64,000 nt of DNA from Cucumis sativus (Eukaryota > Streptophyta > Magnoliopsida > Cucurbitales > Cucurbitaceae), in assembly GCF_000004075.3 (NCBI RefSeq), contig NC_026661.2:5230058-5294057 (forward strand), written 5' to 3'. A program made the translations under genes and the position numbers. Below the pieces are notes generated by a model. It had not been told where the DNA came from, did no database searches, and saw only the letters and a list, made by a program, of their open reading frames with translations. Positions 3,230 through 23,830 of the stretch are shown piece after piece (positions within the stretch are counted from its first letter, which is position 1; every line of letters begins with the position of its first letter).

Positions 3230-3650
3230 GAGCGGTCCAGTTGAGTACGTGAACCGTTGGATTCAAATAAAAACGTGAATTCCGTTAACGGAATCTTTTA
3301 TAATTCTCTCACCGACACCTTTCTCTTTCTCCCCGTACGGTCTTTGGATCTAAATCACCACGTGGATTGCATCCTCCATTCACCAATGACACGCTCCCAC
3401 CTGTACTTCCCAACGTATAACCAAGCGCGTTCTCTTTTCAAGAACTTCCCTCGCGTCGTCACACATATTATATATAATCTCTCAAAGCAAAAAAGAACTG
3501 TTCCCTCCCATCACCGACACCTACCCATCCCCCATTCCTTACCATTACTACCCCTTCTTTTCCTCTTAATTACTCTTTTGCCCCCTCCTCTTCCTCCTTC
3601 CTTTTCACAAACTCAATTTTGAATAATAAAAAGAGGGAAATTGTTCTAAT
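3230..3650 (+). promoter_or_regulatory. Orphan promoter-like block with G-box, TATA and pyrimidine-rich leader
   Basis: Reading plus, the block holds a 16-nt perfect palindrome at 3279-3294 (ATTCCGTTAACGGAAT). It also has a CACGTGG G-box/ABRE core at about 3359, a TATATATAAT run at about 3468-3477, and a long C/T-rich stretch at about 3500-3610 that resembles a plant 5' leader. No coding region follows before the convergent IRX15 gene. It could be the promoter of a non-coding transcript or the stranded promoter of a lost gene. Confidence 0.35.
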
Positions 3651-7077: not shown

Positions 7078-10000
7078 GGAACTAATGGGTTTTGAACGAA
7101 TAGTTCACTTGAATATTGGTTTTGAACTTTAACTAAGAATCTTGAGAGCAAACTAGAAAGAAAGTGAGACGGATGTCAAAGGCACCAAACAACTACACGA
7201 AAAACCCGAGTGCAATAATCATTCTTTTCAATACATAGCTTGACAAAATCTTGACAACTTAAAAGGAAACTAAACCAACATAAGAAAAAGTGTATATATA
7301 TATTGGATAAAAAAGTGTAAAAAATTAATCTATCAAATAGTAAAAAGTTGAGTTAAGTAATACAAACAGTTCACATGTATTATACAAATTAATTTTTTAG
7401 ATAAGCTTAAATTTTTTAAAAGAAATTGAATATAATTAGAGTATGGACGATACATCTTTCGAACATTTTAAAATGAAAAAGCAATGGAATGGTTAAGGAA
7501 AGAGCAATTGTAAGGAAAAGGAATTGTTAAATGGTTCGAAAAATAAAGGGGTGAAGAAGGGGAGAAAGAAGAGAGAAGGATAGTTATAATGAGATGAGAG
7601 ATATCAACTCCGCATTAACCGGCCGCTAGCAAATGTCTTATCTTAATAACTCATAAACATATCAATTTTTTCCAACACACACATGTGGTTCTATTATTAT
7701 TATTATTATTATCATTACACATTAAATCTATCTTATTCTCCCTCTATATACTTAATTTCATTAAGAAACTATAACCACTCAAAATATATAGATTAAAATT
7801 TAACAAATTTTATAGTATGAAAACTGAAATTATTATATTGATCAGTTTGAAATAGAGAAAGAGCTTGGATATTAAAAATAGTTTGAAAATTAATTGGTAA
7901 TGAAAGATGCAATGTATGGATCTTTTAAAATTGTGGAGTAAGTTTACAATATTTGGGTCAAAATCTTTATTTATTTGTTCACTCATATTGCCTATGGTAG
8001 AAGAAAATGAGATTTCAAGGAAAGTAACCTATGTATTTTATAAGAATAATTGTGAGGTCTCTCAGTTATATGCAATATTTTTAATTATCTAAACTTAACA
8101 TCACTAAAGTTTAATTTAAACAAGGAAGGTCAACGTCAACCCTAATAAAATGTGAAACCAAAAGACATGCCCCCAAGCCTAATAGATTATCTTATTATCG
8201 TGACCTAACTCTAAAAAAAATACCTTATATAACAGTTATGAATAACTATTTCTATACTTCTTTCTTACCATATCATTCTTCATCCCAATTATTACAAACT
8301 TTTTTTATAATTTGTTTTCCAAATCTTTTCTCTCTTCCTAATTATTACAAATTTACCTTTTCTCATATGCAATTCACATATATTTCTTTTTATCCAAACT
8401 TTAACATTAATACTTATACAATCAACTTCAAAGTTAAATGTTTGATTCTCCACTCCACCATCTATAATAAAATAAATTGAAAAGTGAATACAAAAAAAGT
8501 AAAGAAAAAGAAAAAGAGACCGACACATTTGCAAATTCACCATAACACTACTTGCATATATATACACAGAAAAAGAAAATAATTGAGGCATGAGAGTCCA
8601 ATCATTTCAAAGCTATTAATTAATCAATTAAGAAATACAAAAAAGGAAAACTTTAATTAATTTCCGGTGGGTATATAATAACAATAATGATGATGATGTG
8701 AATATAATTAAGAGTACCAATGTGTGTTTAAAGTTACAAAACAAATAATAACTAAAAATAAAGAAGAGGATCTGCATATAGCATTTTAGTGGACCTTTTT
8801 AGGGCTGCATTCTTAACCCTTTCATTATTTTCATTTTAAATGGTGTAGGGAACTCCCCCACCTTACCTACGAACCTTCCATCCCATAATCCAACCATTAT
8901 TTCCCATTACTACTCTTCTTTATATATACACAAGAGGTTAGATGCCAAAGGAAGCAAAGGTATATTGTATATATAAGAGACCGATTACAACATCTTGTAA
9001 ATTAGTGGGTTGGAAGGATATATGACGATATAACTTATGGAAGTATTTGTTTGTGAAACAACTAAAGAAGGCTTAAGAATCATAATTGAATAATGAGGAA
9101 AAGAAAAGACCCTCGAATTAAAAAAGAGAATTTTTGGTTTGGGTGTTAGTAGGAGGGTGTGAGAGCTGGGAGATATATGTGTCATGTCATATCTATCCAA
9201 CCAAAGAATCAAAGATTAAGACAAATTGAAGGATTACATAAAAGCTAGCAAGAAACCAAATAATAGTCCATCATATAAAATTAATTGACTAAAGTTCAGA
9301 ACTACTTTTCCCACAAAACCCACAATTTAGTTATTATACTTTCAACTATTTTTATTTATATACACATATTTAATGATTTGAATTAAAGAAATCTTATCAA
9401 CCTCTATAACTAATTAATGAAAACTGTTTACATTGGTTGGTTTTCATATATTCATGGGTTACATAAAATTAGTTTTGATTGAAATGAACCAATTCTAATG
9501 CTTACGATTATTTTAAGTATGGAGCCATTTTGATGATTTATTGAAAGTAACATTAAGATCATTGAAAGCACAAATGTACTTTTAACTTAAAAAGGGAAAA
9601 GGGAAAAATTAAATTAGTGATTAATTAGTAGGAAAATTTGTGAAAGGTGGCTGTTTTGGGGTCCATTTGCATTGCATTTTTCCTTTTAATTTCATTGAGT
9701 TTGGTTAGTTACTACCCTTTTCCCCCCTCAAACCCAAAGTGCTTTTTCTAATGCCTCAATTTGCCCAATCATTATGCTCCATTCTTCCTAGACATTAATT
9801 GATCATTCACCTCAATCAAATATATCTTTTTTATAAGGTCGCTTCTACCAAATTTCTAAAATTTTATTAATAGATCCATTCTAGTTTACAATAATACCAA
9901 AATTAAATTAAAATGCCTTTCATATAGTTTACTTCAATTTTTTTTGGTTACTTTTACAATTTATAACAACCATGACAATAAAAATGATTATTCTTACTTT

Positions 10001-10867
10001 TCATACCATAAGACACATACAAACGGTAACTATAATTATAAAATAATTCAAGCTCGAAACATATAAACTAAATTAATCACAATTTACCTCCTCAAGTGTA
10101 ATGATTTTAGTATCGGTATGAAACACAAGTAAACAACATTAAATGTAATTAAATGCGAGGTTAATATATTTCTTATGTTCACATGAGATTTCGGGAGAAA
10201 TGTAATTCATGAAATTGAATTTTGTATATTGATTTATACAGGGTTGTGGATACAATCTCTAACATTTACTCATTTGATGCTTTCTCTCGAATACAAATTA
10301 AAAAAATTTAGAACTTCTTGGTATTCGGTCTTTAGGATGTTGTAATTGTAAGTCGATTTGAATTTCGTTCTTTTGGAATTCAAGAAAAGCTTAATCTCTC
10401 AAGTCTTCAATCTTTCAGAAGACATTGATCTCGAGGTTGATACGAACTTGCACGTGTTGAGAGCTTGTAGAAGTTTGAATCTTTAATTTTTCAAAGCTTC
10501 AATACTTCATACCTTCAATTATTATTTCAACCACAAGATTGGATGAGAATCTCTAATTATAGAGAATTTTCATGAACTTTGGATATGCTTAGGTCCATTT
10601 GTCGGTTGAATTTAGGTTCATTTTGCTTGGTGAGCTTGGACTTGAGCCCATTTACCTGTTAAGCTTGAGCTTGGGCTTGAGTCAATTTGCTCAGCAGGCC
10701 TGAGGCTTATTATTTATTTGGCTCAATTTTACATCGAGGCTTGAATTAAGTTGGATATGAGAAAAGTTGACTATCAAATCCAATTAAATTATGAATGTCA
10801 CAATTTTGGTATGATAATGAATTTAATTGGTGAACCCAAAGAATATATATATATATTTGTTTGTGAT

Positions 10868-11065
10868 GGAGGAAGTGATAGGGGTAATTGGGCCGAGGAA
10901 AGTCCCCGGCCTATAAACTGTGAAGATACAGGCCCGGAAACGGGTTTATTTAGGTAAAGATCAATGGGCCATCGCAGTAAACAATTGGGATGGTAGCTGG
11001 GTGGCACACGTGTGGGAGCGCCTCAGAACGGGGCTTACACTTCCGGCGGCAATTTTGAACTTTTT
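10868..11065 (+). ncRNA. RNase P/MRP-type RNA core (candidate MRP RNA gene or copy)
   Basis: A GC-rich island in AT-rich DNA carries both strands of the universal P4 helix. CR-I (GAGGAAAGTCCCCGG, 10895-10909) pairs with the CR-V-like CAGAACGGGGCTTA (11024-11037). A900-G902 pair with C11034-T11036, U903 is a single bulge, and C904-G908 pair with C11029-G11033; this bulged uridine is a hallmark of P4. GGAAGTG (10871-10877) pairs with CACTTCC (11038-11044), one base from P4, as P2 does. ATAAA/TTTAT (10913-10917/10945-10949) encloses two hairpins: CTGT-GAAGAT-ACAG (10918-10931) and CCCG-GAAA-CGGG (10933-10944), like P8 and P9. CCATC/GATGG (10969-10973/10989-10993) forms a further stem. A TATA run at 10844-10855 lies about 25 bases before P2, and T-runs at 11053 and 11061 could end Pol III transcription. 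Plant nuclear RNase P is protein-only, so MRP is the likelier class. The usual large P3 domain and a clear plant upstream sequence element are missing, so it may be a truncated copy. Confidence 0.5.
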
Positions 11066-12138
11066 ATTATTTTATAGTAAATTTCCATTATTAATACTAA
11101 TCTCGATTAATTAAATGAGTTTGGGATTTAATAACAAAGAAAGTAAAATAGAGAAGAAATAGGCAATGGATAGGATAATTAATTTGAAATTGAGATTAAA
11201 ACAAAAGATATAGAATGGAAAGGGTGAGAGAGTTTGTAGGGATTATGTTGAAGGAAGTCGAAAGCGCGTTCGTCACTAATAAGAAAGTGAAAGAACAGGG
11301 AAATGAAGGGTGGAGATTGATTGAGTGACGCAAGTGCTGACACTATAATTCTCACGAACTCACAAGTCGCCATTTCCATTCTCATGCCTCTTTGCCTCTT
11401 TCCTTTTCATTCACTTTTCAATTTTATAAAATATTTCCATTTTATTATTCTTCAGTGTTTGACAAGAGAAAGGAAAAGAAAAACCCCACTTCTTATGCTA
11501 CCTCACTCTAACTTCTTCTACAATCTTAGACATAGATATAAGAAAAAGGAAATTTATATCTTGAATGAGGTTTTGAATTGACCATCTATGGGATGAACTT
11601 AAAAGAAATTATGTCTCCATATTTGGAAATGGTCATTTCTGTCTTCTGTCTAATGCACTAATTTAATAGAATAGAGAGAGAATTTTAATTTAATGAAAGA
11701 AAAAAATTGGTGTTAAATTAAAGAGAGAGAAACTCATGTTTTTATAACATCCATTGCTAAGGATAAAACTTCATATACATATATATAAAGTAAATGTGGT
11801 ATTATTAGGGATGTGAAGGTATTTGTAAGAGTGATAGACAAAAGTAAAACTTGAAAAAAACAAATGGCATGAGAGGCAAAAAGAAAAGGAAGTGAGGCTT
11901 TGGAGATGATGCAAAACAAAATTGATTTTGGATTCCATTACCAACGTAACACAATATATTATGCAATTATTATCTGAACACTGCGGAAAAAGGGAATCCA
12001 TCGCTGTGGGCATGAGAGACAATAAGTAAAGCTATTCATTTTTCTAATTCACCAAACTACGACAACTTTTCTACATTGTTTATTGGGTTTATTTAAACTA
12101 AGACATCCAAGAATTCCATTCATATTTGGCTTCTTCTC

Positions 12139-12298: not shown

Positions 12299-13096
12299 AT
12301 GGGCAGCGAAGGCCGACAGCTCCACATCTTCATGTTTCCATTCATGGCTCATGGCCATATGATTCCCATTGTGGACATGGCCAAGTTATTTGCATCTCGT
12401 GGCATCAAGATCACCATCGTCACAACCCCTCTCAATTCCATCTCCATTTCCAAATCACTTCACAATTGTTCCCCCAATTCGCTCATCCAACTTCTCATCC
12501 TTAAATTCCCTGCTGCTGAAGCTGGTTTACCAGATGGTTGTGAAAATGCTGACTCCATTCCTTCCATGGATTTACTCCCCAAATTCTTCGAAGCTGTCTC
12601 CTTGCTTCAACCACCTTTTGAGGAAGCTCTTCACAACAATCGCCCTGATTGCCTCATCTCCGACATGTTCTTCCCTTGGACCAACGATGTTGCTGACAGA
12701 GTTGGCATTCCCAGGCTGATTTTCCATGGCACAAGTTGTTTCTCTCTTTGTTCTTCCGAGTTCATGAGACTTCACAAGCCTTACCAGCATGTTTCCTCCG
12801 ATACAGAACCTTTTACCATTCCTTATCTCCCCGGAGATATTAAGCTAACCAAAATGAAACTCCCCATCTTTGTTCGGGAGAATAGCGAGAATGAATTTAG
12901 CAAATTTATCACCAAGGTTAAAGAATCAGAATCGTTTTGCTATGGTGTTGTTGTCAACAGTTTCTACGAGCTGGAAGCAGAGTATGTAGATTGTTACAAA
13001 GATGTCTTGGGAAGAAAGACGTGGACAATTGGCCCACTTTCATTAACCAACACCAAAACTCAAGAAATCACGCTAAGAGGAAGAGAATCTGCCATT

Positions 13097-13128
<32 letters not shown>

Positions 13129-13741
13129 CCAGAAACCCAACTCGGTTGTGTATGTCTGTTTTGGAAGTTTGGCCAAATTCAACTCAGCTCAGTTGAAGGA
13201 GATTGCAATTGGACTGGAGGCTTCTGGGAAAAAATTCATCTGGGTTGTCAGAAAAGGAAAAGGGGAAGAAGAGGAAGAGGAACAAAATTGGCTACCCGAG
13301 GGGTACGAAGAGAGGATGGAAGGAACAGGGCTAATCATAAGAGGATGGGCACCGCAAGTTTTGATATTGGATCACCCATCAGTAGGTGGATTTGTGACAC
13401 ACTGTGGATGGAATTCAACGTTGGAAGGAGTGGCTGCGGGAGTTCCGATGGTGACATGGCCAGTGGGGGCGGAGCAGTTTTATAATGAGAAACTGGTGAC
13501 GGAGGTACTAAAAACAGGGGTTGGAGTTGGGGTTCAGAAATGGGCTCCCGGTGTGGGAGATTTCATAGAAAGTGAAGCTGTGGAGAAGGCAATTAGAAGA
13601 ATAATGGAGAAAGAAGGAGAAGAGATGAGAAACAGAGCAATAGAACTTGGAAAGAAGGCAAAGTGGGCAGTTGGAGAAGAAGGATCTTCATATTCAAATT
13701 TGGATGCTTTAATTGAGGAGTTGAAATCATTGGCATTTTAG
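12299..13741 (+). CDS. UDP-glycosyltransferase, UGT73 family (copy A, intact)
   Basis: This is an intronless 480-residue family-1 glycosyltransferase, the full length for UGT73. It is expected to move a sugar, most likely glucose, from UDP-glucose onto a small acceptor such as a flavonoid, coumarin or triterpenoid in the cytosol. The catalytic His20 lies in AHGHMIP, and its partner Asp122 lies in SDMFFPW. The 44-residue plant PSPG sugar-donor box spans W350 to Q393, with HCGWNSTLEG in the middle and a final Gln, as in UDP-glucose users. An acidic run (KGEEEEEE) marks the N/C linker. ATG has A at -3 and G at +4. It is the closest relative of the pseudogene downstream, sharing the EGRQLHIFMFPF start. 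The acceptor cannot be read from sequence; UGT73 enzymes that act on cucurbitacins are known in cucumber, but I cannot equate this gene with one. Confidence 0.93.
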
Positions 13742-15029
13742 ATTCATTCTTCAACTGAAGTTCATGTGGGACTTTCTCTTGGACGAGCAAGTCAAGTCAT
13801 CTACTAAGTATTTGGTTTTTAGCTTTTTGAGATTTTATTATTTACACACACTGAGTATGATTATGTAATTAGTTGTTTTTTTATATATATAATACACAAT
13901 AATTTATGAATTTTTAATTCAAACCCAATATCTGAATTCTATTAACCCTCAATAACTAGATATAATAAAAGCCTAAAGAGAAAGGAGTCCATAAAGATAG
14001 ATGATAAGTCTTATTTGGTTACATTTATTGCACCTAATTTGTTCTATCTATTTATTTTAATAGAACTTTCAAACTAATTACTAACCACTTAAAAGCATAA
14101 GCAGCCCTTCAATAGTTTAAAACACAATATCATGCCTTCTTTATTAGAGAAAACTTCAGTATCTCTCACCTTTTCAATTAAAAATCTATTATCTCTCCAT
14201 TCACATTTCAAATGCACAATGAAATGAGTAAATATACATCGTATAAACCATAATTTATTTTGGTGTGTTCACAAATATATTAAAAAAAATGTAAACATAT
14301 AATGTGTATATTGCACTTTTTAATGAGAAAATAAAATATTTTGCTTTGTTATTTATTTTTGTCTTGTGAGAGAACGAAAATAGAAAATTAATTAAGCTAA
14401 ACTTTTTGAAAAATAATAGGTGTGGTTGGACTTACTTTACATAAATTCTATAAGAAAACAATATTATTAACGCCAATTTTGACAAAAATTCAGCATATTC
14501 CATTAAATATATATAATGCATCACCATTTATATATAAAGACAATTTGATTAGTATAAAAGTTTGAATATTAGGTGGACTGAAATATAATAAAATTCGCAT
14601 AGGATAATGGTACCATATATTGTCTACTTTTAATATCTTGTTGCATTGGGGAGATATCTATCTAATAAATTTTTATAATCATTTCCTCATTATTGTTTAG
14701 GCAATTTTAGTTTGATTGCATTCAATCCCAATAGATTTGAACAACACTCTCAACCAACCAGTTGTTGAATCATTATGAAAGCATAAAAAAAAAAAAAGAA
14801 AGAGGAGTTGTGATGACCATGAGAGACAGAAACTAAAAGTTAGGAGATGATGCGTAAGAAAGTTGATTCATTTAACCAAAGAGTAGTGACATCGAAGAAT
14901 CTCATCCACATTCTCTTATAAATTCTCTCAAATCTCTACTCTCTTCTTCATCTTCTTCTTCTTCTTCTTCTTTATCTGTCATTAACTAACTCATTTCTTG
15001 TGTTGTTTTTTTTATTTAATTCATCCACC
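13742..15029. other. Intergenic DNA and promoter of the UGT pseudogene
   Basis: This is AT-rich spacer with no gene. The last 120 bases repeat the leader layout of copy A (TATA-like TTATAAATT, then a CTT/CAT-rich run), so the duplicated unit included the promoter. Confidence 0.6.
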
Positions 15030-16191
15030 ATGGCTACCGAAGGTCGACAGCTTCATATCTTCATGTTTCCATTCATGGCTCATGGCCACATGATTCCCGT
15101 TGTGAACATGGCCAACCTTTTTGCATCTCGTGGCATAAAGATCACCATCGTCACAACCCCTCTCAATTCCATCTCCATCTCCAAATCACTTCACAATGAT
15201 TCCAGTTCATTGCATATTCATCTTCTCATTCTCAAATTCCCTTCTGCTGAAGTTGGTTTACCTGATGATTGTGAAAATGTTGACTCCCTTCCAACCATGG
15301 ATTTGCTCCCCTTATTCTACCAAGCTATCAGCTTGCTTCAATCCTCTCTTGAGGAAGCTCTTCACCAGAATCGCCCCCATTGCCTTGTGGCCGACATGTT
15401 CTTCCCTTGGACCAACGATGTTGCTGACAGAATTGGGATTCCCAGGCTGATTTTTCATGGCACTGGTTCTTTCTCTCTTTGTGCCTCTGAGTTCGTCAGA
15501 ATTCACCAGCCTTATAAACATGTTTCGTCCTATACAGAGCGTTTTGTCATTCCTTATCTCCCTGGAGATATTAAGCTAACCAAAATGCAACTTCCCATCA
15601 TCCTTCGGGAGAATATCGAGAATGAATACAACAAATTTAGCACCAAAGTTAAAGAGTCAGAGGCAGAGAGGAAGAGAATCCACCATTGACGGGAAAAAAT
15701 TCATCTGAGTAGTCAGGAAAAGGGAAAGGGGAAGAGGAGGAAGACGAACAATATTGGCTACCGAAAGGGTACGAACAAAGGATGGAAGGAAGAGGGTTAA
15801 TCATAAGAGGATGGGCATCGCAAGTTTTGATATTGGATCATCCGGCGGTGGGTGGATTTGTTACACACTGCAGGTGGGGATTTGAACACTGGACCTCTTG
15901 TTAGGTGCCAGTTGAGCTGCACAGCAATTTTACAATGAGAAACTAGTGAAGGAGGTTCTAAAGATAGGGGTTGGTGTTGGGGTTCGAAAATGGGCACCTG
16001 GTGTGGGAGACTTCATAAGAAGTGAAGCTGTGGAGAAGGCGATTAAGAGAATAATGGAGGAAGAAGGAGAAGAGACGAGAAACAGAGCAATAGAATTTGC
16101 AAAGGAGGCGGAGAGAGCAATTGAGAAAGACGGATCTTCATATTTGAATCTGGATGATTTAATTGAGGAGTTGAAAACGTTGGCATTTTAG
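15030..16191 (+). pseudogene. UGT73 pseudogene (copy B), partial duplicate of copy A
   Basis: The first ~210 codons, from MATEGRQLHIF through the catalytic His/Asp motifs, are open and very close to copy A. Then two internal stretches are missing relative to copy A (about 12936-13070 and 13101-13226), joined so that the frame is lost near 15660-15690. A TGA replaces the Trp of FIWVVRK near 15707. The PSPG box is cut after THC, where about 60 bases of UGT sequence are replaced by a 51-base tRNA/SINE-like filler (15871-15921). The last 80 codons are open again and end in the family's KTLAF. Promoter and leader survive, so it may still be transcribed. With so many lesions it cannot make an active enzyme. 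Confidence 0.9.
15871..15921 (-). repeat. tRNA/SINE-like filler inside the UGT pseudogene
   Basis: Read on minus, the inserted bases contain an A-box-like AGCTCAACTGG and, 20 bases later, a B-box-like GTTCAAATCC, followed by CCCACCTGCA. This is the internal Pol III promoter pattern of tRNA-derived plant SINEs. The spacing between boxes is shorter than in a tRNA, so the piece is internally deleted or a fragment. It sits exactly where UGT coding sequence was lost, as filler DNA does after break repair. Confidence 0.55.
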
Positions 16192-16504
16192 ACTCATTTT
16201 AAAACTACTTCTCGTGGGGTTTCCTGGATGGGAGATAGCCTACCAAACATGTCGTTAACTACCCTTGTCATAAAGAATATCATGTTGAAATAGAAGGATT
16301 TTCAGCTGATAATTTATTCAAAATCAGTCCCAAACATGTTCTAATAATACTTCTGGTTATATATTATATCTAAACAAAACTTTGTTTGAGTGAATCTTTT
16401 CAAATCAATAACCTAAACTCAGGGAGGGCAACGGGTGAAGTAACTAAAGCCAAGTTTACTCTATACAATACGACACAACGGGCACAGCCACCAGAATGAA
16501 ACCT
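16192..16504. other. Short spacer between convergent UGT 3' ends
   Basis: These 313 bases separate the 3' end of the plus-strand pseudogene from the 3' end of the first minus-strand UGT. I see nothing in it beyond AT-rich 3' flanks. It marks the point where gene orientation flips in the cluster. Confidence 0.6.
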
Positions 16505-17947
16505 TCAGAACGCGAACGATTTCAATTCTTGTGTCAAATCATGCAAATTAGAGTAAGACGATCCATTTTCCGTAACAGCTTTCTTCGCCATCTTTGCCAA
16601 TTCTTTAGCTCTGTTTCTCATCCCCTCTGCTTCTTCTCCTTCCATAACTCTTCTAATTGCATTTTTCAAAGCTTCTCTTTCAATGAAATCCCCCACAACT
16701 CTCACCCATTTTTGAACTCCAACTGCAACTCCAATTTTCAACACCTCCGTCACCAGCTTCTCGTTGTAAAACTGATCTGCCGCCACCGGCCATGTCACCA
16801 TCGGAACTCCAGCAGTCACTCCTTCAAGCGTGGAGTTCCACCCACAGTGTGTCACAAATCCACCCACTGCCGGATGATCTAATATCAAAACTTGTGGCGC
16901 CCAACCTCTTATAATCAACCCTTTTCCTTCTATTCTATGTTCGTATCCTTCTGGTAACCAATCATGATTCTCTTCTTCTTCTTCCTTCTTCACTCTCCTC
17001 GCAACCCATATGAAATTTTTCCTAGCAGCTTCAAGCCCACTTGCAATCTCTTTCAGCTGATCAAAGTTGAATTTTGCCATACTTCCAAAACACACATACA
17101 CCACCGAATTGGGTTTTTTGGAGTCGAGCCATTTTAAGCACGCGTGTTCGTCAATGCTGGATTCATTTCCTCTTTGAGCTTTTTCTTCAGTTTCCTTATT
17201 ACACAAAGAAAGTGGGCCAATATGCCAAGCCTTTATTCCCAAGACATTTCTGCAGCAATCTACGTACTCTGCTTCCAGCTCGTAAAAACTGTTCCAAATA
17301 GCCCCATAACACGCCGATCCCAATTCGTGAGCCCTCTTTATAAATTCGCTCACTTCATTTTTTAGATTCTCCCGCACGAATTGAGGAAGCTTCGTCTTCG
17401 TGAAAGTAATATCTCCAGGAAAACAAGGAATGAGAAAAGGCTCTGCATCTGATGAGACATGGTTGTAAGGCTCATGAATTCTCATGAATTCCGAAGCACA
17501 GCTGGAGAAAAAACTGGTGCCGTGGAAAATCAGCCTGGGGATTCCAAATTTGGCAGCAACATCGTTGGCCCAAGGGAAGTACATATCGGCGATGATGCAA
17601 TGGGGGCGTTGTTCCATAACAGCCTCCTCAAATGGGTTTTGGAACAAATTAAAAGCAGAGATGAATTTGGGGAACATATCAGGAGTGATGACGGAGTCGA
17701 GATTTTCACAACCATCTGGTAGTCCAACTTCAGCGGAAGGAAATTTGAGGACAAGAAGTTGAATTTGAGAAGTAGATAGGGATTTGGAATTTTGGATTGA
17801 ATTAGAAATGGAGATGGCATTGAGAGGGGTTGTGACTATGGTGATTTTGATACCGCGAGAAGAAAGCAATTTGGCCAAGTCGACCATGGGAATCATGTGG
17901 CCGCGAGCCATGAAGGGCAACAAGAACATGTGGAGCTGAGTCCCCAT
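16505..17947 (-). CDS. UDP-glycosyltransferase, UGT73 family (copy C, intact)
   Basis: This is an intronless, full-length gene of 480 residues starting MGTQLHMFLLPF. Catalytic His17 lies in GHMIP, preceded by an unusual Arg (ARGHMIP) where its neighbours have His, Pro or Gln. The partner Asp121 lies in ADMYFPW. The PSPG box is complete and ends ADQ rather than the AEQ or GEQ of the other copies, still with the Gln typical of UDP-glucose donors. The C-terminal helix region (WVRVVGDFIERE) matches the minus-strand group. Its sequence belongs with copies D-F rather than A/B. The substrate is unknown. The start is the first Met, with G at +4 and the family's usual residue count before GHMIP. Confidence 0.93.
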   Translation of the reverse strand: MGTQLHMFLLPFMARGHMIPMVDLAKLLSSRGIKITIVTTPLNAISISNSIQNSKSLSTSQIQLLVLKFPSAEVGLPDGCENLDSVITPDMFPKFISAFNLFQNPFEEAVMEQRPHCIIADMYFPWANDVAAKFGIPRLIFHGTSFFSSCASEFMRIHEPYNHVSSDAEPFLIPCFPGDITFTKTKLPQFVRENLKNEVSEFIKRAHELGSACYGAIWNSFYELEAEYVDCCRNVLGIKAWHIGPLSLCNKETEEKAQRGNESSIDEHACLKWLDSKKPNSVVYVCFGSMAKFNFDQLKEIASGLEAARKNFIWVARRVKKEEEEENHDWLPEGYEHRIEGKGLIIRGWAPQVLILDHPAVGGFVTHCGWNSTLEGVTAGVPMVTWPVAADQFYNEKLVTEVLKIGVAVGVQKWVRVVGDFIEREALKNAIRRVMEGEEAEGMRNRAKELAKMAKKAVTENGSSYSNLHDLTQELKSFAF

Positions 17948-18880
17948 TTTAGTGGCTGTGTTACAAATGAAATGAAGAAGATGAGTTGCAGAGAGGAGAG
18001 TCGTCGATGGAGAAGAAAAGAAACACGAAAGTGTATATATATGTGTGTGTGTGTCCTCTTATATATTCACCACCACATCTATTTTTTAAATCTTGTTGTT
18101 GTGGAGCTTCTTTAATAATACCTAATCTCTTATCTTTCTATTAGAAAAACGTATTATAAAGTAATGGTGAAAACTACACCCAATTAATCAATGTTTTGAT
18201 TGGAATCTTCACACTTAATATGTTATTTTAAAATTAAAAAAAGATTTGAAATAGGAAGGAAAAGACAAAACAAAAGATCAGGTTGTCTCTTCATCATGTG
18301 AAATGATAAAATATGTAGGCCAATGTTATTGCATTCATTTTTTTATTTGAAAATTTATAAGGCAATACCAATGGTTAAGTATATTGTATGATGCATCAAA
18401 GGTTTTTCCTTTTTTATTGCTTTTCTTTGCATTTCTTCTCACCAAGAAGCTTCCTCCCACAACTATAACACGACACAAACATCTAACCATTACTCGACTT
18501 CAAACTAAGGCTACTTGACCTTTTGCTTGTTAAGCATTCATCGTCAAACCTCTTTCCTTTCTTCTACTTGTTCTCACTATTTATGCATGAAGAATATGAA
18601 GACATGCACAAGTGATTCTTGAGAAATTGGAGTCAGAACCCCAACCCACGTTTTAGCTCAGTTTTCATTTCCTTAACCCAGAAGAAAAATTGGGCTGTAT
18701 TTGTGACTTTTTCTCAAAAGTAATTATTTGGGTCTAAGATATTCAAGCTAGAAATCCAAACTTGAAGAGGGTACTCAAAAGCTCGTATCATTTTATATTT
18801 GTGTTCACTTGAAAGACATCCTACCATTGCAAACCAAAAATCAAACCTTCTGAAAGCTCAATAAGCAAACAGAATGAATT
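17948..18880. other. Spacer between UGT copies C and D
   Basis: The right-hand promoter side of copy C shows a TATA-like TATATAAGAGG (minus, about 18055-18065) and a GT/AT run near 18033-18052. The rest is AT-rich with no gene. Confidence 0.5.
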
Positions 18881-20314
18881 TCAAAAGGCCAACGATTCCA
18901 ACTCCTTAATCAAAGCATCCAAATCGCAGTAGGATGATCCATTCTCTGCAACAGCTTTCCTTGCCTTTTCTGCAAATTCTTTAGCCCTCTTTCTTATCTC
19001 CTCTGCTTCTTCTCCCTCCATAACTCTTCCTATTGCCTTTTCCACAGCTTCACTGTTAATGAAATCCCCAACGATTCTCACCCATTTTTGTACCCCAACA
19101 CCAACTCCAATTTTCAATACCTCCGTCACCAGTTTCTCGTTGTAAAATTGCTCTGCCGCCACCGGCCATGTCACCATCGGAACTCCGGCAGCCACTCCTT
19201 CCAACGTCGAGTTCCATCCACAGTGTGTTATAAATCCACCCACTGCTGGATGATCCAATATCATAACTTGTGGCGCCCATCCTCTTATAATTAGTCCTTT
19301 TCCTTCCATCCTCTGTTCGTACCCTTCTGGTAACCAATCCTTATCTTCTTCGTCTTCGTCTTTCTCTTTTATTTTCCTCACAACCCATATGAAATTTTTT
19401 CCACAAGCTTCCAGCCCATTTGCAATCTCCTTCAGCTGATTAGAGTTGAATTTTGTTAAAGTTCCAAAACACACATACACTACCGAGTTGGGTTTTTTGG
19501 AGTCGAGCCATTTCAAGCACTCATGTTCCTCAATGGCGGATTTGTTTCCTCTCTGAGCTTCTTCTTCCGATTCTTGAGTACATAACGAAAGTGGGCCAAT
19601 GGTCCATGCTTTTCTTCCCAACACATTTTTGTAGCAATCTGCATACTCTGCTTCCAGCTCGTAAAAACTGTTCATAACAACCCCATAACATTTGGAGTCT
19701 GAGTCATAAGCCCTCTTCATATACTCGGTTAAATCATTCTTGACATTCTCCCGCACAAGCTCATGAAGTTTCATCTTTGTGATAGTAATATTCCCAGGGA
19801 GATGAGGAATGAGAAAAGGCTCTGTTTCCGAGGAAACATTGTTGTAAGGCTCGTAAATCCGCATGAACTCCAAGGCACAGGTGGAGAAAAAACTAGTACC
19901 GTGAAAATTAAGCCTGGGAATCCCCAATTTGACAGAAGCATCGTTGGCCCAAGGAAAAAACATATCGGCTACAATACAATGGGGGCGATGTTCCGTAATA
20001 GCCTCCTCAAGTGGGGTTTGGAGCAAAGACACAGCAGAGATGAATTTGGGAATCATGGAAGGACTAATAAGGAAGTCAAGATTTTCACAGCCATCTGGGA
20101 GGCCGACTTCAGCAGAAGGGAATTTGAGTATGAGAAGGTTGATGAGTGGATTAGAATCGTGAAGGGATTTGGCAATAGAGATGGAATTGATAGGTGTTGT
20201 GACGATGGTGACCTTGATGCCACGAGAAGAGAACAATTTAGCCATGTCGACCATGGGAATCATATGCCCGTGCGCCAAGAAAGGGAACAAGAATATGTGG
20301 AGCTGATTCCCCAT
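18881..20314 (-). CDS. UDP-glycosyltransferase, UGT73 family (copy D, intact)
   Basis: This is a 477-residue intronless UGT. His17 in AHGHMIP and Asp117 in ADMFFPW form the catalytic pair. The PSPG box is complete, with small changes (QVMILDHP, GGFITHCG) from its neighbours, and ends AEQ. The acceptor-side loop differs most (NDASVKLG in place of NDVAAKFG), which may shift acceptor choice. The linker is very acidic (KEKDEDEEDKD). The gene is transcribed toward copy C, with an AT-rich promoter holding TTATAAATA (minus, about 20403-20412). Confidence 0.93.
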   Translation of the reverse strand: MGNQLHIFLFPFLAHGHMIPMVDMAKLFSSRGIKVTIVTTPINSISIAKSLHDSNPLINLLILKFPSAEVGLPDGCENLDFLISPSMIPKFISAVSLLQTPLEEAITEHRPHCIVADMFFPWANDASVKLGIPRLNFHGTSFFSTCALEFMRIYEPYNNVSSETEPFLIPHLPGNITITKMKLHELVRENVKNDLTEYMKRAYDSDSKCYGVVMNSFYELEAEYADCYKNVLGRKAWTIGPLSLCTQESEEEAQRGNKSAIEEHECLKWLDSKKPNSVVYVCFGTLTKFNSNQLKEIANGLEACGKNFIWVVRKIKEKDEDEEDKDWLPEGYEQRMEGKGLIIRGWAPQVMILDHPAVGGFITHCGWNSTLEGVAAGVPMVTWPVAAEQFYNEKLVTEVLKIGVGVGVQKWVRIVGDFINSEAVEKAIGRVMEGEEAEEIRKRAKEFAEKARKAVAENGSSYCDLDALIKELESLAF

Positions 20315-21754
20315 TGCAGTGGGTGTGAAGAAAATGAAATGAAGAAGATGAGTTAGAGAGGAGAGGTGTTAATGGAGGAAAAAAGGAATACTAAAGTGGG
20401 GATATTTATAATCGGAGATTGCTAAAGTACTTCTCATAGCCTATAGAAATAATAAGGTCTCCCATTTTACAATGTGAGATGAGATCTTAAACAATAATAA
20501 AATTGGTAGTCGATGATAGCATGTGATTCCAAAAACTAAATGACAACCATAGGAGTACTCCATCTAATTAATTGGTATGTAAGCAAATATTATAAAGTTA
20601 TGTGATGAGACATTTAAGATGATATCATAGGCTAATGATGAAAGATATATATATATATATTAATTATTTCAATTCTAAACATATCTTTACTTATTAAAAT
20701 TAATGTATAATTTTGATATGAAACAATCCAATTAAATTAGAAAATATAAATTTAATAAGAAAAATTGAATTTTGAATTTTGAGATATTTAATATATATGG
20801 ATAAATTAAAATTGGAATGTTGATATTAATATTAATAAGAAAAGATAATTTTAAAATTAAAAAATATATAATATAAATAATAATAATAAAAAGTGAGTCC
20901 CAAAACTAAGATAATGGAACTGTCCCTTTGTCTCTCTGCCAAATCATTTGATTCAAAGCATCTTTAATAAACTATACCATACTTTTATTTTGTCTTTCAT
21001 TTCATACGTTTCTTTTCCTTTTTAAGCAACAATAATAATAAAACTTAACCTTCTCTATATGCCATATTCATATGAAACTCTCCAAATTTTGAATCATTTT
21101 AAATCATCTGTATTCAAAAGTCTTTTTAAGCAAGTTTATGTTTAATTTATATTTTCTAGTATTAGGTGGTTCCAAATATAAAAACAAATGCCTCAAACTA
21201 ATAGCACCAAACAACAAAACCTAAAACTATTTGCAAAGTAATAACTAATGAATAATATTTGCTGCTATTCTCACATTTTTAGTGTACTTTGAATCATATT
21301 TTCTATTATGTATAGATCATGATAAATATAGAATGATATCCATAAGTTTAGTTTGTTTTTCTACATTTAAAAACTCATCTATTGTGTTTTAAATAATCTC
21401 CCAATTTTCTAAAATGAACTTTTCAGAACCAAAAAAATTGCCTTGAAATTAAGTTTTGTAAAGTAAAATGTAATGAAGTAAGCAATTGCGTCAAAGGGCA
21501 GAAAGGATATCAGATTGGTGTCTTGGAAGTAGAGACTATTCATACAACATAAAGTTAACAACTCCACAGTTATATTATAACTTAATTGATTAAGTGAATC
21601 AGTTGCTTTAATGCTTTGATCCTTCTTCGTCAAAGGAAGAGGTTGGAGATTCGAGATCATGCACTTTGAATATTCATATTATAGAGTTTAAAAATCACAC
21701 GTTGTTTTCTTATTCAACGTTATCGTTGCAGCCAATTAGAAAACTGAATGAATT
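20315..21754. other. Spacer between UGT copies D and E
   Basis: This holds the copy D promoter on the left and the copy E 3' flank on the right. A SINE-like piece lies at 21574-21660. A 16-base block (21478-21493) recurs in the 3' flank of copy F at 23585-23600. No gene is seen. Confidence 0.55.
21574..21660 (+). repeat. Diverged tRNA-derived SINE-like segment
   Basis: An A-box-like TAACTTAATTGATTAAG (about 21577-21593) is followed by a B-box-like GGAGATTCGAGATC (about 21645-21658), at near-tRNA spacing. I see no clear target duplication or tail, so the ends are uncertain. Confidence 0.35.
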
Positions 21755-23206
21755 TCAAGATGCAAAAGATTTCATTTCCTTAATCAAAGCTTCCAAATCA
21801 GAGTAAGACGATCCATTTTCTGTGATAGCCTTTTTCGCCATCTCACCCAATTCTTTAGCTTTGTTTCTCATCTCCTCTGCTTCTTTTCCTTCCATAACTC
21901 TCCTTATTGCCTTCTCCACAGCTTCACTTTTAATGAAATCCCCCACAGTTCTCACCCATTTCTGTACCCCAACACCAACTCCAATTTTCAACACCTCTGT
22001 CAATAGTTTCTCGTTGTAAAATTGCTCTGCTGCCACCGGCCACGTCACCATCGGAACTCCGGCAGCTACTCCTTCCAACGTGGAATTCCAGCCACAGTGT
22101 GTCACAAAACCACCCACCCCTGGATGATCCAATATCAAAACTTGCGGTGCCCATCCTCTTATAATCATCCCTTTTCCTTCCATTCTTTGTTCGTACCCTT
22201 CTGGTAACCAATCCTTATCCTCTCCTTTTTCTTCATCCCCTTTCACTTTTCTCACGACCCATATAAAATTTTTTCTTGAAGCTTCAAGCCCAATTGCAAT
22301 CTCCTTCAACTGATCAGCGTTGAATTTCGCCATACTTCCAAAAGACACATACACTACTGAATTGGGTTTCTGGGAGTCGAGCCATTTCAAGCACTCGTGT
22401 TCGTCAATGGCGGATTTGTTTCCTCTCTGAGCTTTTTCTTCAATGTCCTTATTACATAAAGAAAGTGGGCCAATATGCCACACCTTTCTTCCAAAAACAT
22501 TTCTATAGCAATCTGCATACTCCGCCTCCAACTCGTAGAAACTATTCATAATCAGCCCATAACACTTAGAGCTTGCTTCAAAAGCTCTCTTCATAAATTC
22601 GCTGAGATCATTTTTGTAATTCTCCCACATGAATTCAGGAAGTTTCATCTTTGTGAAAGTAATCTCTCCGGGTAGACAAGGAATGAGAAAAGGCTCTGTT
22701 TCCGATGAAACATGTTTGTAAGGCTCGTGAATCCTTATGAACTCCGAAGCACAGGTGGAGAAAAAGCCAGTGCCATGGAAAGTGAGTCTGGGGATCCCAA
22801 ATTTGGCAGCAACATCGTTGGCCCAAGGGAAGAAAATATCAGCTAGAATACAATGGGGGCGATGTTCCATAACAGCTTCCTCAAATGGGGTTTGGAGCAA
22901 ATTGCAAACGGAGATGAATTTGGGGATCATAGCATTGCCGGTAACGGAGTCGAGATTTTCACAGCCATCTGGTAAGCCAACTTCAGCAGAAGGGAATTTG
23001 AGGATGAGAAGATGAATTTTGGGAGGTGGAGAGATGGATTTGGAGTTATTGTGGATTGAATTAGAGATGGAGATGGAATTGAGAGGGGTTGTGACGATGG
23101 TGATCTTGACACCACGAGAAGAAAGCAATTTAGCCATGTCGACCATGGGAATCATGTGGCCGGGAGCCATGATAGGGAACAAGAACATGTGAAGTTGAGT
23201 CTCCAT
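21755..23206 (-). CDS. UDP-glycosyltransferase, UGT73 family (copy E, intact)
   Basis: This is a 483-residue UGT starting METQLHMFLFP at 23206. The open frame continues 81 codons upstream, but that part is promoter and leader (AT-rich, with a TATATATAC run), and the start at 23206 gives the family N-terminus. Catalytic His17 lies in APGHMIP, with Pro where sisters have His or Gln; Asp123 lies in ADIFFPW. The PSPG box is complete (DHPGVGGF, ends AEQ). VYVSFGS replaces the VYVCFGS of most copies. It groups closely with copies C and F. The acceptor cannot be inferred. Confidence 0.93.
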   Translation of the reverse strand: METQLHMFLFPIMAPGHMIPMVDMAKLLSSRGVKITIVTTPLNSISISNSIHNNSKSISPPPKIHLLILKFPSAEVGLPDGCENLDSVTGNAMIPKFISVCNLLQTPFEEAVMEHRPHCILADIFFPWANDVAAKFGIPRLTFHGTGFFSTCASEFIRIHEPYKHVSSETEPFLIPCLPGEITFTKMKLPEFMWENYKNDLSEFMKRAFEASSKCYGLIMNSFYELEAEYADCYRNVFGRKVWHIGPLSLCNKDIEEKAQRGNKSAIDEHECLKWLDSQKPNSVVYVSFGSMAKFNADQLKEIAIGLEASRKNFIWVVRKVKGDEEKGEDKDWLPEGYEQRMEGKGMIIRGWAPQVLILDHPGVGGFVTHCGWNSTLEGVAAGVPMVTWPVAAEQFYNEKLLTEVLKIGVGVGVQKWVRTVGDFIKSEAVEKAIRRVMEGKEAEEMRNKAKELGEMAKKAITENGSSYSDLEALIKEMKSFAS

Positions 23207-23830
23207 TTTAGTGAGTGATATGTAAGAAGATGAGTTGCAGAGAAAGAGGTGTTCAAATGGATATATATACAAAAAGGAACATGAGAGTGAAGCTTCGTGT
23301 CCAAAGTCAAAAACAAAACTATCATTGAGTTTCTTTTTTTTATAACTTCTTAAAATATTTATTAAGTATCTTGATTTTTGTATTTTATATGAAACATTAA
23401 TCACCTCATATATATATATATATAAATAAACAATTATATATGTAATCAAATATCTAAATTAAGAAATTATAATTTGAATTGATATTATTATTATTAATAA
23501 TGTGAGGTTTGATTTTATATAACCTCCCAATGTTAGTCTAAATTCGCCTTAAAATTAATGAAGTTTTTATTGTCAAATGAAGATGTAAGCAATTGCGTCA
23601 CACACCAGGCAAGATAATGTTTAAAAATATACCACTTGAGATCTACACCTACACACTTGCCTTATCCAAGTTGTGTGTGTATTATGTGATAACATACTAA
23701 TTTTAAATTTATGACTTCATTCAATTTCACTTCAACTGCTATTTAAACTTTGTCATTGTAACCTAAAACAACAAAAAACAAATATTGTTTATACCACCTT
23801 TCATTATGGATGGGTAGTCCTATATAAATT
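23207..23830. other. Spacer between UGT copies E and F
   Basis: This contains the copy E promoter (TATA-like run at about 23255-23268), a TA microsatellite near 23407-23423, and the copy F 3' flank with the 16-base block shared with the D-E spacer. No gene is seen. Confidence 0.55.

Follow-up and report, generated by a model that had tools for sequence, protein, structure and literature searches.

RNase MRP RNA and RNase P RNA have a core in common and are told apart by a few published marks. In excerpts of PMC13184271, MRP RNA is marked by a stem directly next to helix P4, a six-base conserved region IV (CR-IV) with A1, G2, and A7, and a P8 loop reading GARAR, whereas RNase P RNA has an eight-base CR-IV and a CR-II/CR-III arm; excerpts of PMC3737539 indicate that GARA alone also occurs. 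The Rpp20/Rpp25 pair is bound at P3, which has been solved in the yeast and human enzymes (PMC11621453, in part). Land plants hold PRORP in place of RNase P RNA, according to excerpts of PMC10941002, and nothing in the results given here contradicts that replacement. For the promoter class relevant here, plants need both an upstream sequence element (USE) and a TATA sequence, and plants have been found to carry several MRP genes (PMC1796607, in part). Here we describe a compact MRP-type RNA element in a 64,000-nucleotide stretch of the Cucumis sativus genome (contig NC_026661.2, positions 5,230,058 to 5,294,057 of the forward strand), which we call the window.

The element occupies positions 10862 to 11056 of the window, 195 nt as aligned. 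All coordinates below are window positions unless another record is named; the parts of the element and the TATA and T-runs beside it lie on the forward strand, and a dispersed repeat is given without a strand. At the level of sequence, comparison with the RNase MRP RNA gene on C4 establishes homology to MRP RNA, a kept core, and absent arms. We conclude, with a probability of about 0.72, that the element is a divergent, compact paralogue of the C4 gene whose core has been kept by long selection since the two split, whether or not it still works. The selection that kept the core after the element parted from the C4 gene was probably purifying for most of the element's history. By the tests applied, descent from MRP RNA is most likely, and the element would act in the manner of such an RNA; it would be an irregular member of the family because P3 and nearly all of P12 are gone.

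Match to the C4 gene

The Rfam model of RNase MRP RNA (RF00030), searched genome-wide, gave one gene above the cut-off, at C4:2431912-2432149 (positions 1501 to 1738 of record L002; 76.8 bits), and one further place on C5 (14.4 bits; E, 4.5). This is the second, full MRP locus that the original prediction, made from the letters of the window, had proposed to look for. From the C4 gene only, we built a covariance model, R2, with P1, P3, P4, P5/P7, P8, P9, P12, and P19. R2 was run against 107,611 bases, for which the tool's E-values are rough: the window together with L002 and with five prokaryotic or viral records (L030 to L034) that had been selected by their CR-I/CR-V pattern. At E up to 10 it matched two places: the C4 gene itself, with 314.5 bits, and positions 10862 to 11056, with 49.8 bits and an E of 2.9e-14. 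None of L030 to L034 matched at that threshold; four of them are RNase P RNAs by Rfam, and L030 is RNase P-like by sequence reading only. Because R2 finds the element and none of these five, the match exceeds the core common to P and MRP RNAs.

CR-I (GAGGAAAGTCC, 10895 to 10905) is read directly from the sequence, and CR-V (CAGAACGGGGCTTAC, 11024 to 11038) is identical to that of C4 over its 15 bases. The pair GAAAGTCCCCGG and AGAACGGGGCTTAC, spaced 100 to 130 bases apart, has a single site in the window, and none of 100 shuffles contains it, in keeping with the earlier view that so many parts in order are hard to get by chance. The second of these patterns, the 14-base CR-V core, has exactly two exact sites in the 226.6-Mb genome, namely, the element and the C4 MRP gene. 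With one mismatch allowed there are 7 further genome sites; the reversed pattern, as a control, gives 17 sites.

Immediately after CR-I, a 41-base segment that reaches through P9 aligns gap-free with C4, and 24 of its bases are identical (0 of 20000 shuffles as good). In the R2 register, pairing holds in 110 of 114 cells, and 12 pairs are changed on both sides (0 of 500 shuffles); these figures lean to structure because that alignment is fitted to structure. Taking P4, P8, and P9 against C4, all 18 pairs are kept, three of them differing on both sides and three on one. The probability that eight random changes would leave all ten P8 and P9 pairs intact is 0.0006, and sliding the partner strands makes pairing fall to 50% or less. 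P8 and P9 are still fully paired (10 of 10) although three of these pairs have changed on both sides, a sign that selection acted on the RNA well after the element and C4 had parted.

A recent copy of the C4 gene was considered and is ruled out, as a DNA search with either the element or C4 returns only the query itself (for the element, in the genome at E up to 0.001). On the opposite strand, some 1 kb before the C4 gene, L002 413 to 524 weakly matches the plant U3 snoRNA (20.7 bits; gathering score, 80) and is possibly a U3 relic.

Structure of the element

The 5′ strand of P4 (10900 to 10908), with its bulged U10903, forms eight of eight pairs with 11029 to 11036 within CR-V. Directly next to it, the 5′ strand of P5/P7 (10909 to 10913) forms five of five pairs with 10965 to 10969 in the C4 register, the register of R2. 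A rival partner for the 5′ strand also lies at 10951 to 10955; a first fold placed the P7 strand there and was superseded by the R2 register, but both can form. Inside this closing stem are the P8 hairpin (10918 to 10931; CUGUG/UACAG, with a GAAGA loop that agrees with GARAR at four of five positions) and the P9 hairpin (10932 to 10945; GCCCG/CGGGU, with a GAAA loop), both read directly. Direct reading thus bears out the parts named in the original prediction: CR-I, CR-V, P4 with a bulged U, and a closing stem around two hairpins, one with a GAAA loop.

At the place of the P12 arm, the R2 register leaves a four-pair stub (10948 to 10961). Just 19 bases separate P9 from the 3′ strand of P5/P7, so there is no room for a CR-II/CR-III arm. 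CR-IV (AGTAAA, 10976 to 10981) has six bases, which is the MRP type, and is aligned with AGTTAT of C4. Thus, two of the three MRP marks are present, the stem next to P4 (10909-10913/10965-10969) and the six-base CR-IV (AGUAAA). The stretch at the place of P19 (10988 to 11023) is longer than that of C4, and its pairing is uncertain.

In the C4 register, the strands of P1 are 10863 to 10872 and, by the R2 alignment, 11040 to 11049. An alternative P1, GGAAGTG/CACTTCC, joins 10871 to 10877 with 11038 to 11044 by seven Watson-Crick pairs, one base from P4. The original prediction had called a stem at this place P2-like. The seven-pair stem stands, but the label does not: because its 3′ strand comes after CR-V, the stem adjoining P4 is P1 by strand order, and a possible P2 lies elsewhere. 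Its candidate strands are TAATTG (10885 to 10890) and CAATTG (10982 to 10987), the latter aligned with TCACTC of P2 in C4. Among the 63 hexamers in 10956 to 11023, CAATTG at 10982 is the only one that pairs fully within 10878 to 10895; shuffling that stretch also yields a full partner for it in 826 of 20000 cases.

The absence of the P3 domain was predicted correctly but was not the whole of the loss, since the P12 arm too is cut to at most the four-pair stub. Over the modelled span the element has 195 bases versus 245 in the C4 RNA. The two share the order P1, CR-I/P4, adjoining stem, P8, P9, CR-IV, and CR-V and the 3′ end CAATTTT; they differ in that the element lacks P3, has at most a stub of P12, has a GAAGA loop in P8, has no USE close upstream, and is passed over by RF00030. 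With the type P RNase P of Pyrobaculum, which has no specificity domain and is described in part of PMC4919922, the element shares the loss of an outer domain and the keeping of the core; that RNA, however, is an archaeal RNase P, whereas the element is MRP-like by model and by CR-IV.

Flanking sequences

The GC content is 0.544 in 10868 to 11049 versus 0.332 and 0.312 in the 500-base flanks, and 0.75% of 182-base stretches sampled from the window are as GC rich. A TATA run (about 10844 to 10857) lies some 25 bases upstream of the probable 5′ end, and T-runs, TTTT at 11053 to 11056 and TTTTT at 11061 to 11065, may serve as an RNA polymerase III stop. These values and coordinates confirm the GC-rich island with a TATA run before it and T-runs after it that had been described earlier. 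The C4 gene has a perfect USE (L002:1438-1448) as well as a T-run. In the window, the best USE-like sequence within 10000 to 10866 has 3 mismatches, versus 0 at C4, and lies at 10726, inside a repeat; with up to 2 mismatches, there is no site between 4591 and 13549.

The repeat is an old, long terminal repeat (LTR)-like dispersed copy (10176 to 10831) that stops some 12 bases short of the TATA run. Its family is about 660 bases long, and many copies begin with TGTT and end with AACA; the copy in the window is without the last ∼20 bases. Searches with parts of the repeat gave at least 43 matching pieces each (from the best 40 of 125 and the best 40 of 454 candidate places, self included). In a tree of 15 copies, most of whose inner forks are poorly resolved, the end branch of the window copy is 0.13 changes per site long. 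With plant rates of 0.7 to 1.3 changes a year in 100 million sites, the branch corresponds to roughly 10 to 19 million years. An origin of the element itself from a transposable element was rejected: the upstream repeat stops before it, and a DNA search with the downstream flank, 11050 to 11420, returned the self-match only.

No open reading frame (ORF) of at least 100 amino acids lies between 5316 and 12299 of the window, on which ground an overlap of the element with a coding gene was rejected. Beyond, at 12299 to 23449, is a UDP-glycosyltransferase gene cluster, in which four of six ORFs scanned match Pfam PF00201.

Rfam searches

In an Rfam scan of a 701-base slice with the element, the top family was that of archaeal RNase P RNA (RNaseP_arch, RF00373), at 20.1 bits and an E of 0.0011 (gathering score, 84), and there was one further, weaker match from the same clan. 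The element was absent from the matches listed for the whole 64-kb window at a limit of E 10. Genome-wide, RF00009, RF00373, and RF00010 gave no places among the best 15 to 25 candidates, the number that these searches scored from first-look lists of hundreds to thousands. The empty answers of these three models are weak because RF00373 passed over the very element that it scores on the 701-base slice.

Positions 1407 to 1559 of L030, a viral contig (IMGVR_UViG_3300033144_007217), hold what resembles the core of an RNase P RNA in which most of the specificity domain is lacking, below the Rfam gathering score; the contig has seven tRNA genes at gathering score, and the RNase P-like core lies about 500 bases behind one cluster of them. 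A class A RNase P RNA at 3384 to 3593 of L033, a Tectomicrobia metagenome-assembled genome, reaches 104.4 bits with only about 155 bases from CR-I to CR-V and is either shortened or misassembled; L031 has a similar short RNase P RNA, but it contains a run of N.

Discussion

Several results weigh against a divergent paralogue of the C4 gene. In the Rfam scan of the window no family reached its gathering score, RF00030 included. No USE was found within 120 bases upstream, where the best site mismatches at 5 of 11 positions. Two of the ten P1 pairs are broken in the C4 register, and the P8 loop is one base off GARAR, whereas the C4 loop, GAAAU, agrees with GARA. P3 is absent; R2 aligns its hairpin as deleted, and two of four outer P3 pairs remain. 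Outside CR-I, P8, P9, and CR-V, plain global alignment to C4 is weak, with shuffles as good in 204 of 1000 cases for the 5′ part, 45 for the middle, and 53 for the 3′ part, and pair shuffles on the plain two-row alignment equal the observed value in 56 of 500. The folding energy is only moderately better than that of shuffled sequence (z, −2.22; equalled in 6 of 200 shuffles), and the free fold beats the fold containing P4 by 4.7 kcal/mol, although the C4 gene's own gap is 4.6. On the signs that could have spoken against the original prediction the outcome is therefore mixed: no Rfam match rises above threshold, whereas helices are kept with two-sided changes relative to C4. Among the readings offered then, the strongest support goes to a divergent, compact plant MRP RNA, given the R2 match (E, 2.9e-14) and the absent P3. 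A 5′-shortened copy fits poorly because R2 aligns both ends and the whole order of the core.

The most serious alternative concerns the present state of the element and overlaps with the reading that we prefer. The element may be a recently dead MRP gene, that is, a long-standing, once working paralogue whose USE was removed by the LTR-like insertion or an adjacent deletion and which has decayed little; we regard this as nearly, though not quite, an even chance. It would account for the lack of a USE close upstream, for a repeat that ends ∼12 bases before the TATA run without the last bases of other copies, for the two broken P1 pairs, and for the P8 loop off consensus. However, the TATA run and T-runs are in place, and the repeat looks old (branch, 0.13), yet P4, P8, P9, and the alternative P1 are intact. 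Had the element drifted for as long as the repeat branch, all 18 pairs would survive with a probability of 0.016 and 25 pairs with a probability of 0.003; the latter figure adds the seven pairs of the alternative P1, a stem chosen because it pairs. Both estimates rest on two assumptions: that the element was already in place when the repeat inserted next to it, and that the branch length gives the time of this insertion. Between a working gene and a recently dead one, the odds are about even, and all the sequence evidence is common to both. The stronger proposal, a working second MRP RNA without P3 and P12 that has been under selection in its plant lineage for more than 10 million years and is driven by a TATA-only or LTR-borne promoter, we consider tentative, with perhaps one chance in three.

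That the element is instead an RNase P RNA of bacterial, archaeal, phage, or organelle origin that entered the nuclear genome is very improbable. It is true that RNaseP_arch is the top Rfam family on the slice (E, 0.0011), that CR-I, with GAGGAAAG, agrees with the archaeal consensus, and that about 10954 to 10968 resembles the conserved stretch after P5 in the RNaseP_arch model. These likenesses can be set beside the universal P/MRP core, which the element and archaeal RNase P RNA (RF00373) have in common, but the element has no specificity domain, a shorter step from CR-I to P8, and an MRP-type CR-IV, and the stem next to P4 is likewise of the MRP type. The model of the C4 MRP gene finds the element and none of L030 to L034. 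The narrow CR-I/CR-V pattern has no exact match in viral or prokaryotic contigs, and the wider pattern gives one viral contig and four bacterial records, none of which match the MRP model. BLAST gave one short piece in phage and three in plasmid records, at E of 2 to 7. The genome-wide searches with RF00010 and RF00373 came up empty among the candidates scored, which is weak evidence since neither lists the element.

We attach a similarly small weight to a lost nuclear RNase P RNA of plants. The form of such an RNA is unpredictable, as plants are not known to keep one, which leaves this explanation some latitude. RF00009 lists nothing in the genome, although it does not list the element either. 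Against it are the lack of room for CR-II/CR-III, a CR-IV of six rather than eight bases, the stem that adjoins P4, and the presence of PRORP in land plants, as given in excerpts of PMC10941002. Chance resemblance, with which the lack of any family at gathering score and the absence from the whole-window list would agree, is negligible in view of the R2 match (E, 2.9e-14), the CR-I/CR-V pair (0/100 shuffles), the 41-base alignment (0/20000), and the two exact genome sites of the CR-V core.

In a literature search that mostly excluded subscription journals, we found no P3-less plant MRP RNA, judging by the titles and abstract beginnings of the best-ranked papers, and nothing on RNase MRP RNA together with Cucumis; a word search for the subject in PMC12218528, on new plant RNA structures, was empty.

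The element can be viewed as an MRP gene pared to its catalytic core, which would consist of P1, a possible P2, P4 with its bulged U, a P5-type stem, P8, P9, and CR-IV. If expressed, it would take an MRP-like core fold that binds the core proteins Pop1, Rpp29/Pop4, Pop5, and Rpp30. The Rpp20/Rpp25 (Alba) pair would not be expected to bind, as P3 is missing. The resulting small MRP-like particle might cleave single-stranded RNA, or it might sequester core proteins. If the element is dead, it is still a clear case of an old MRP paralogue missed by the Rfam models. If it is working, it is a natural test of whether P3 and Rpp20/Rpp25 are dispensable in a eukaryotic MRP particle, and a core kept without P3 and P12 would show which parts of MRP RNA can be lost and that a plant can have a second MRP-type particle.
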